64,000 bases of DNA from Planctomycetota bacterium (GTDB taxonomy: Bacteria; Planctomycetota; UBA11346): NCBI GenBank assembly GCA_016745075.1, contig JADGDD010000012.1, positions 1-64,000 of the forward strand, given 5' to 3'. The position numbers and the translations under genes are program-made. Under the pieces are notes generated by a model. That model was not told the DNA's origin. It made no database searches and worked only from the letters and a program-made list of their open reading frames with translations. Position 1 is the stretch's first letter. Each line of letters opens with the position of its first letter. Positions 11,062 through 13,402 of the stretch are shown in pieces.

Positions 11062-11661
11062 TTAGCGCAAGCACAGCTTTTTCCCGATGAAGGCTGGCTC
11101 CCATGTTGCGACCAGTTCATCCTGTTCTTTTTTCACAAGATGCCCCGAACAAATATCTCCAAGTACCATATCCAACAAACGGAGTCCCATAGGAAAAAGT
11201 TCTCGCCGCCACAAACTCGATTCGGTGTCACTCGGCTTAATAAAGCACCAGTCCTGTGCTGCTATTGGCCCACCGTCTGCAACATCAGTGAGCCAGTACA
11301 CAGAACCGCCCGTAATAGGATCATTATCACGAACCGCCCAGAGAATAGCATCGCGGCCTCGGTGGCGCGGTAATAAACTGGGATGATAACCAATAGCCCC
11401 AAAGGTTGTTTGAGCAATGACTGTACTTGAAATATATTGATGGGCATGCGCGGTAATAATTAAATCAGTATCGTCTGGCAATGACTCCTCTGTTATTGCA
11501 TCGCATGCTAATGCTCCTGCATGTGTTGATAGCACATCACCAGTCGGCGCTACAACCTGCACCAGCTCTACCCCGGCTCGTTTTTTAATAAGGTCATGAA
11601 CGGCACAGCCAAAGGAGCGTGAGCCAATTAAAACAATTCTAAGTGGTTCTTGATAATACAT
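11062..11661 (-). CDS. Formyltransferase-family protein (methionyl-tRNA/GAR formyltransferase-like fold)
   Basis: GAIGYHPSLLPRHRGRDAILWAVRDND motif; TAATG coupling with the ATPase-GNAT gene. Confidence 0.8.
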   Translation of the reverse strand: MYYQEPLRIVLIGSRSFGCAVHDLIKKRAGVELVQVVAPTGDVLSTHAGALACDAITEESLPDDTDLIITAHAHQYISSTVIAQTTFGAIGYHPSLLPRHRGRDAILWAVRDNDPITGGSVYWLTDVADGGPIAAQDWCFIKPSDTESSLWRRELFPMGLRLLDMVLGDICSGHLVKKEQDELVATWEPAFIGKKLCLR

Positions 11662-12842
11662 TATACTTGTTCCTTTTTATTATTTTTGCCAATATAACGA
11701 AATCCCTGAACCGCTCTAAAATGGCCACCGTAGCCTGCTGAAATCATCGCCTTTTTCTCTGGCTGTTTTCGTGTTTTGTTTTTTATGTTTTGTGAGTTGG
11801 TAATAGATGAACGCGACTTGCCTTTATGACCGCCATGTGTGCTTGCTGATATTTGTGTCCACTCTGGCATTCGTCGCAGGGCTGCACATAAACCCGGATG
11901 GCTGGTATGAAAACAGGTTGTTGCAGGAAATAAAAAGCGAGAGCCTTCACCGCCATGTAATTGATTTTCGCATATCCAATTGAGGAAACGCACACCAACA
12001 CCAGCCCCCTGCCATTCAGGCATCACCACCAAACGACAAGCGCGCGCCTCCACACGGCTCCCTTTATTTTTACAGCCCACCGCCATATGCACGACTGGTT
12101 CACCATCAACCGTGCCAACATAACAATAGCTGGCTGGCATCTTAGGGACTTTTAAATAGTGATGCGGTTCAAAGAGTGGCCAGTAACGCCAATCTGTCTT
12201 GATAATGTCGAGTTCAAATGTGGGTCGCCGAAGACACCCCCGATGGAAAGTGCGTTTTCCGGTATCATAAATCCAATCAGGTTCCAACCATTCAAGCACA
12301 TCATAATGTGGGGTTAAAAGAACCACCTTCTTTTTCGGTTTCTGCCGTCGCCACGCTTTAGCAAATGCCAGCGCGCCAAACTTAGCGATTTGCCTATCAA
12401 CAACAGATGTAAATTCATCAACTACGCTATGCTCGGGCGCGTCAATTAATAAGCGGGCCAAGGTGGCGCGAAATTGTTCACCCATAGATAAGGCCTGAAA
12501 CGGGCGTAACCATGTTGGCACACAACCAAGACCAACACCGGAGAGCGCACCAGTCACTGCATTAAAATCAGCATCGGGGCCGATAGCATCTATTAAAGGT
12601 TTATCTGTTGGCCACTCTGGTTCATACCAGCTTTCATCGCCAAATATGGCACGGCCTATGGACGTTTTACCAGAACCCGATGGGCCAACGACTACACCGA
12701 GCTGCCAATCATCATCAAGCGATATGTCGAGGTCTGCGTCTAAATCAAAATTGGTGCCAGACTCCGCATTAAATAATGATTTTACACGAGCAGCACGATA
12801 GGAATTAAAATCAGAACAGCGGTTGCGTACTTCAATAATCAT
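11661..12842 (-). CDS. ABC-type ATPase fused to GNAT (Mom-like) acyltransferase domain
   Basis: Walker A VVGPSGSGKTSIGRA, LSMGEQFRATLARLLIDAP signature, HSVVDEF Walker B; C-terminal GNAT-like LVVMPEWQGAGVGVRFLN with FEPHHYL and TSHPGL. Confidence 0.75.
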   Translation of the reverse strand: MIIEVRNRCSDFNSYRAARVKSLFNAESGTNFDLDADLDISLDDDWQLGVVVGPSGSGKTSIGRAIFGDESWYEPEWPTDKPLIDAIGPDADFNAVTGALSGVGLGCVPTWLRPFQALSMGEQFRATLARLLIDAPEHSVVDEFTSVVDRQIAKFGALAFAKAWRRQKPKKKVVLLTPHYDVLEWLEPDWIYDTGKRTFHRGCLRRPTFELDIIKTDWRYWPLFEPHHYLKVPKMPASYCYVGTVDGEPVVHMAVGCKNKGSRVEARACRLVVMPEWQGAGVGVRFLNWICENQLHGGEGSRFLFPATTCFHTSHPGLCAALRRMPEWTQISASTHGGHKGKSRSSITNSQNIKNKTRKQPEKKAMISAGYGGHFRAVQGFRYIGKNNKKEQV

Positions 12843-13402
12843 ACGACCACCACCTTACAAGTGTAGCCTTCTGTATTGAGCTTTTCAAAAGTGGCTTGTT
12901 GTTCGGCTTCATTACGACATGTCACAATAACGGCGTATTGCTCATTATATTCAAAACCGTTATCTGTTGCGCCAAGATCAGGGCCGTCTTCTCCTGATAA
13001 TGAAACCGCATCCTGCAATAAGGTTTCCAACTCCCCATTATCAAAGCCAGTCATCTCATCAAGATTAATGGTTCCCAGCTCTTCCAGTTCCTGAATAAGT
13101 TTTTCTGTATCCCAGTCTGATTCTTCGCCTGTGCGATTATCAGCAATACGATAGGCACGTACCTGCTCATCGGTGAGGTCGTTTGCTACAAGTACTGGAG
13201 CTTCAGTGAGCCCCAATTGCTGTGCTGCAAGCAAACGCGTATGACCAACAATCAACACACCCGCGCTATCAACAACAAGGGGCTGCTGAAAGCCAAACTG
13301 CTCAATGGATAAGGCCACTTTACGAATGGCGGCTAGGGAAATAGAACGCGGATTCCCTGCATAGGGGCGCGGCTTATTAATAGGCCATAATTCAATATGC
13401 AT
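12839..13402 (-). CDS. ParB/Srx-fold N-terminal domain protein
   Basis: GVLIVGHTRLLAAQQLG and YRIADNRTGEESDWD ParB-like motifs; 4 bp overlap with the downstream ATPase-GNAT gene; start chosen at MHIELWP. Confidence 0.82.
   Translation of the reverse strand: MHIELWPINKPRPYAGNPRSISLAAIRKVALSIEQFGFQQPLVVDSAGVLIVGHTRLLAAQQLGLTEAPVLVANDLTDEQVRAYRIADNRTGEESDWDTEKLIQELEELGTINLDEMTGFDNGELETLLQDAVSLSGEDGPDLGATDNGFEYNEQYAVIVTCRNEAEQQATFEKLNTEGYTCKVVVV

Follow-up and report, generated by a model that had tools for sequence, protein, structure and literature searches.

What is the function of three translationally coupled genes that lie in a prophage of a Planctomycetota bacterium? The DNA that we analyzed, called the window here, is a stretch of 64,000 nucleotides in which a first-pass annotation had noted genes for a ParB-like protein, a fusion of an ABC-type ATPase to a GNAT domain, and a formyltransferase-like protein.

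Three coupled genes on the repressor strand of a prophage

All three genes are intact open reading frames on the minus strand. The first (12839-13414) is predicted to encode a ParB-like protein of 191 aa with a ParB_N domain and a C-terminal domain (CTD) of about 45 aa; it has a GTG start at 13414, and an in-frame ATG would move the start to 13402. The second (11661-12842) encodes the 393-aa ABC ATPase-GNAT fusion (ABC-GNAT), our candidate for an enzyme that acylates DNA bases and carries its own ATPase, in which the GNAT domain occupies residues 205-393 (11664-12230). The third (11062-11661) encodes a formyltransferase-fold protein of 199 aa, here called FT, in which the catalytic Asn is replaced by Gly. 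The coupling described in the first-pass annotation was confirmed, with a 4-bp ATGA overlap between the first two genes (12839-12842) and a TAATG junction between the second and third at 11661. A minus-strand gene for a RadC-like (JAB) protein (9911-11104; PF04002, 112 bits) overlaps FT by 43 bp, and RadC is also found 3' of FT in 10 related loci from Planctomycetota and the host's own family.

The minus-strand part of the prophage contains an integrase gene (6252-7634), the RadC-like gene, an HTH repressor gene (15585-16013), and an M78 peptidase gene. The plus-strand part carries exonuclease, helicase, primase, terminase, portal, and capsid genes and extends to at least 34.9 kb. This layout places the trio between the integrase and repressor genes, on the same strand as the repressor, rather than among the late genes, so the timing of its expression may differ from that of Mu mom. 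We found no convincing promoter for the trio, and promoter-like sites were no more common in this prophage than in shuffled sequences.

This location, together with a weak match of the ATPase to PADLOC mad3 (E 1e-7), could suit a module that the lysogen expresses against incoming phages (superinfection exclusion), in which the ATPase and ParB act as sensor or nuclease. We consider this extremely unlikely because the best PADLOC stretch covers the Walker A region only, the trio has no nuclease domain, and lytic phages have the same genes near terminase.

Domain content of the three proteins

Family scans bore out the names given to the three proteins. The ParB-like protein matches ParB_N (PF02195) with 27.6 bits against a cut-off of 26.3 and misses the full partition model TIGR00180 (31.8 against 58.45); its CTD corresponds to phrog_28816 (E 4e-12). 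The structure model of this protein, predicted from the single sequence, had a pLDDT of 34. The fusion matches phrog_11143 with 465 bits. Its ABC half matches ABC_tran (PF00005; 28.4 bits, cut-off 25), and its GNAT half scores 21.7 bits with Acetyltransf_7 (PF13508), under the cut-off of 27 in the window protein and over it in relatives. FT matches the superfamily model Formyl_trans_N (PF00551) with 69.3 bits against a cut-off of 26.1. Database names that describe the ATPase as a transporter component (EcfA2, iron siderophore) proved to be generic ABC matches only.

The motifs from which the middle protein had been read as an ABC ATPase joined to a GNAT domain (GPSGSGKTS, LSMGEQ, FEPHHYL, and TSHPGL) are present, and the core residues are conserved over 172 ABC-GNAT proteins. 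Little or no variation was seen in these proteins at the Walker A core, Walker B, the catalytic E143, the switch H179, the signature LS[NM]G, the FxxHHYL residues F224 and Y229, and the Q278xxGxG loop. This last is the CoA-binding loop, which the GNAT domain retains. Judged by these residues, both the ABC and the GNAT domains look catalytically intact. An AlphaFold2 model of the GNAT part (pLDDT 86), built from input rows that excluded phage-record sequences, matched canonical GNAT folds, and its best solved matches were protein N-acetyltransferases such as RimI and Naa60.

Recurrence of the gene order

The combination is not confined to one genome, a restriction that would have counted against the first-pass annotation. 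The same gene order turned up in dozens of phages and genomes that are unrelated to one another, an arrangement that is far beyond chance. ABC-GNAT and FT are paired in Pseudomonas phage Komp_PAO1_1, Gordonia phages, Porphyromonas Mu-like phages, and gut phages, and in the Gordonia phages ParB, ABC-GNAT, FT, and terminase are consecutive. We also examined the 80 best loci from a genome scan, which came from Planctomycetota, Proteobacteria, Bacillota, Verrucomicrobiota, and others. Among these, either ParB or the CTD of about 45 residues alone lay directly 5' of ABC-GNAT in 75 of 76 loci, and FT lay directly 3' of it in 66 of 78 loci of the window's sub-clade. The 12 sub-clade loci without FT indicate that FT is not strictly required.

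Wherever the CTD (phrog_28816) was found in the loci surveyed, it either ended a ParB protein or was encoded by a stand-alone gene 5' of ABC-GNAT, so no other part is linked as closely to ABC-GNAT. One such stand-alone CTD (E 4.5e-10) is the product of a Porphyromonas phage gene recorded as an 'acr candidate' (L084:33301-33429), which lies directly 5' of ABC-GNAT, as it does in sister phages. The anti-CRISPR label of this gene is therefore doubtful.

FT was distributed differently in near and distant members of the family. Among distant ABC-GNAT proteins from IMG/VR (about 31-41% identity), ParB or the CTD was upstream in 65 of 70 loci and FT was found in 0 of 73. In a sample of 399 genomes of the host phylum, all six strong FT matches lay within about 20 bp of an ABC-GNAT that has at least 69% identity, and none was found in genomes with only a distant ABC-GNAT. 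FT is thus a third part specific to the sub-clade. The distances of FT co-vary with those of ABC-GNAT (rho 0.53, compared with at most 0.20 in 300 permutations), to which shared descent contributes. In Gordonia phage Jace, the usual place of FT 3' of ABC-GNAT is taken by gp87 (L088:6972-7397), which encodes an aspartate 1-decarboxylase (PF02261, E 2e-33). This neighbor is compatible with an acyl supply that varies among carriers but is no proof of it. Copies of ABC-GNAT on host chromosomes, where the neighbors could be read, had ParB or the CTD nearby, and one of them (L317) also had phage terminase-like and portal-like genes. No nuclease linked to these copies was seen when their neighbors were inspected without a family scan.

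ABC-GNAT occupies the place of known DNA-modifying enzymes

In the record of phage Mu, com is annotated as activating the translation of mom, which encodes an adenine modification enzyme. The Mu-like phage Komp_PAO1_1 contains a Com zinc ribbon (PF10122, E 9e-21) directly 5' of the CTD, ABC-GNAT, and FT. Among the 80 best genome loci, Com was located at most 800 bp upstream of the cassette in 41 of 76 loci, and in these 41 it always accompanied the stand-alone CTD and never a full ParB. Com was over the cut-off in 6 of 300 genomes of the host phylum. We surveyed the genes that follow Com in 77 viral loci, calling methylases by sequence motifs and using a Com query built mostly from ABC-GNAT operons, and found 26 Dam-like, 26 C5, and 9 DPPY methylases, 5 Mom, 5 ABC-GNAT, and 6 others. 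Thus, a DNA-modifying gene followed Com in 71 of the 77 loci with the ABC-GNAT cases counted in.

The ParB-like protein led to a second set of partners. At 89 viral loci where the partner of a window-like ParB could be determined, with queries built from related loci and methylase classes mostly called by motif and in some cases confirmed with Pfam, 44 ParB proteins were fused to DPPY methylases and 12 preceded TAGT-like genes; the others included 7 partnered with ABC-GNAT, 6 with Mom, 2 with TGT-like genes, and 1 with a C5 methylase. In total, 72 of these 89 were fused to or adjoined a DNA-modifying enzyme, again with ABC-GNAT counted. In Latilactobacillus phage TMW 1.2272 P1, for example, ParB is the N-terminal part of a DNA methylase (52% identity; PF01555, E 1e-26), and in Gordonia phage Lilbeanie the gene for a ParB relative overlaps that for a TAGT DNA glycosyltransferase. 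In their ParB half, such proteins mostly share 41-58% identity with the window ParB, whereas in the window ABC-GNAT and FT take the place of the methylase or glycosyltransferase. ParB proteins have been described as accompanying phage DNA hypermodification (CmoX) (PMC12783734) and Dpd deazaguanine systems (PMC12839542).

ABC-GNAT therefore fills the place of a methylase or Mom behind Com or ParB, which argues for a function in DNA modification. Because the trio is found where known DNA-modifying enzymes sit in many other phages, it most likely marks phage DNA bases, and we consider it very likely that the three genes form a phage-carried operon for the modification of DNA bases. The suggestion of the first-pass annotation that phage DNA bases receive an acyl-type group is thus well supported by gene context, namely the Com slot and the ParB partner slot, by an argument of guilt by association. 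With this evidence from the partners of Com and ParB, the ABC-GNAT family becomes a well supported predicted DNA-modification system. In phages, Com and ParB of the window type also emerge as markers of DNA-modification genes in general and can help in the search for new modifications.

Alternatively, the operon might acylate a host or phage protein such as RNA polymerase, a terminase, or a nuclease, with ParB and the ATPase providing targeting, in the manner of phiKMV-type GNATs. Phage GNATs that acetylate proteins are known, many ABC-GNAT copies adjoin terminase genes, and the best solved matches of the GNAT fold are RimI and Naa60. These fold matches are uninformative since all GNATs resemble each other, and the other occupants of the Com and ParB slots are DNA methylases, Mom, and TAGT, leading us to regard protein acylation as unlikely.

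Comparison of the GNAT domain with Mom

The reading of the operon as a DNA modifier had been based in part on features of the GNAT domain described as Mom-like. The motifs in question, FEPHHYL and TSHPGL, are there, but homology of the GNAT domain to Mom was unsupported by Pfam, profile comparison, and Foldseek. The Mom model PF25680 had no match in the window protein at E values up to 0.1 and none in 10 GNAT domains at E values up to 5, whereas Mu Mom itself matched at 2e-75. Three profile comparisons between GNAT and Mom with hhalign gave probabilities of 0.8-2.9% (P 0.016-0.07), which are not significant; these scores were above those of unrelated controls, and the HHY motif was aligned in register. 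The Mom structure 8bv8 was absent from the best 50 Foldseek matches of the GNAT model.

The likeness to the Mu com-mom operon is one of position. Com sits in the same operon slot upstream of the cassette, the cassette is at the right genome end in Porphyromonas Mu-like phages, and in other loci Mom too lies 3' of the same ParB type. In six such pairs (L331, L332, L368, L390, L403, and L414) Mom is directly 3' of a window-like ParB, and the five of these six Mom proteins that were scanned matched PF25680 at E 2e-45 or better. Unlike Mom, the window GNAT has a canonical CoA loop, and both the ABC domain and FT are absent from Mom.

FT lacks the asparagine of the usual formyltransferase triad

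The active site of formyltransferases usually consists of an Asn-His-Asp triad. FT retains the catalytic His and Asp, and the triad is incomplete: among 120 close relatives the Asn position is occupied by Gly in 94, Ser in 25, and Ala in 1, and by Asn in none. The one methionyl-tRNA-type enzyme (Fmt) of the host that we examined retains N-L-H. Without this Asn, ordinary formyl transfer to an amine is doubtful for FT. Its closest relatives in the PDB are hydrolase domains of 10-formyl-THF dehydrogenase (E 2e-20). FT resembles this domain of ALDH1L1 in sharing HPSLLPRHRG and in having no Asn two residues before the His, and it differs in being a single short domain in a phage operon, without the carrier or dehydrogenase domain.

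Could FT be an ordinary metabolic gene of the PurN or Fmt type that is carried by phages and is unrelated to ABC-GNAT? PHROG and phage annotations name it a phosphoribosylglycinamide formyltransferase, and marine phages carry other short formyltransferases. However, FT misses the NCBIfam equivalog cut-offs by far (55.5 against 201.5 bits for fmt and 40.3 against 150.1 for PurN), and the catalytic Asn is missing from all 120 relatives. Its distances co-vary with those of ABC-GNAT, which all strong FT matches in the phylum sample adjoin. Together, these observations make a metabolic role very unlikely. A scan of viral contigs with the window FT as a single query gave no matches. Gene 3 of Gordonia phage Sisko (L083:1814-2464), annotated as a tRNA-methyltransferase, is actually an FT (PF00551, E 4.5e-10).

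Another alternative is that ParB/Srx and FT act on free nucleotides, which are modified and then incorporated by a polymerase. The FT superfamily includes glycinamide ribonucleotide transformylase, and nucleotide activities are described in the literature for the ParB/Srx superfamily. We regard this route as distinctly unlikely because no thymidylate-synthase-like, kinase, or polymerase gene was seen among the conserved neighbors, the partner slots are common to enzymes that act on polymer DNA (methylases and Mom), and several FT proteins have a shortened acceptor half.

Prior predictions and proposed mechanism

As cited in PMC7824862, the ABC ATPase-GNAT family was predicted by Iyer et al. 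in 2013 to acylate a DNA nucleobase, with QAX98348.1 as an exemplar (2021). This exemplar is the AsFcp_2 coding sequence ASfcp2_2, which was among our own matches (H26; E 7e-37, 36% identity over 74% of the protein). Describing the cassette as novel was therefore too strong as regards ABC-GNAT, whose acylation of DNA has, on that account, been known as a prediction since 2013. The FT sub-clade and the Com link may be the new part. Our literature search yielded no paper on either of them or on the CTD; Iyer et al. 2013 may mention ParB or FT. The window proteins share with the wider family the domain fusion and the typical upstream ParB. The sub-clade (at least 53% identity) differs from it in adding FT directly downstream and in having its own C-terminal motif, GYGGHFRAVQGF, and those of its members that are in Mu-like phages also have Com and the stand-alone CTD.

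For the base-modification operon we propose that ParB, via its CTD, or the CTD alone in Mu-like phages, would dock ABC-GNAT on DNA. By binding and hydrolyzing ATP, the ABC domain may then clamp the duplex or open it so that a base is exposed, and the GNAT domain would acylate an exocyclic amine (adenine N6 or cytosine N4) with a CoA thioester as the donor. The resulting mark could shield phage DNA from restriction or host defenses. The hydrolase domain of 10-formyl-THF dehydrogenase passes formyl to a phosphopantetheine thiol, and by likeness to this domain FT might make formyl-CoA or formylate the transferred group. Taken as a whole, this explanation, a DNA-modifying operon with docking, ATPase, acyl transfer, and a formyl supply from FT, seems to us likely. 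That the group transferred in the FT sub-clade is formyl-derived is a tentative suggestion. More doubtful still is the specific scheme in which FT would turn 10-formyl-THF and CoA into formyl-CoA, and the CTD-docked, ATPase-driven GNAT would write an N-formyl or formyl-derived mark. If FT does supply the group, folate one-carbon metabolism would be linked to DNA marking. We know of no description of such a DNA mark with folate-fed chemistry. In the literature on carrier phages, including the LE3/LE4 paper, we found no nucleoside, restriction, or nanopore reports. Carriers in culture include Gordonia phage Sisko and Pseudomonas phage Komp_PAO1_1, making the system directly testable by nucleoside mass spectrometry.

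Other genes near the trio

Between the integrase and RadC-like genes, positions 7693-9933 encode a 746-aa protein of no known family, the gene for which overlaps RadC by 23 bp. The region at 14113-16013 contains the HTH repressor and M78 peptidase genes, the latter matching PADLOC capP (E 7e-47), and adjoining it is an uncharacterized open reading frame of 234 aa (13478-14182). Genes for a BsuBI/PstI-type restriction endonuclease and an Eco57I-type methylase (2569-5144) adjoin the prophage integrase.
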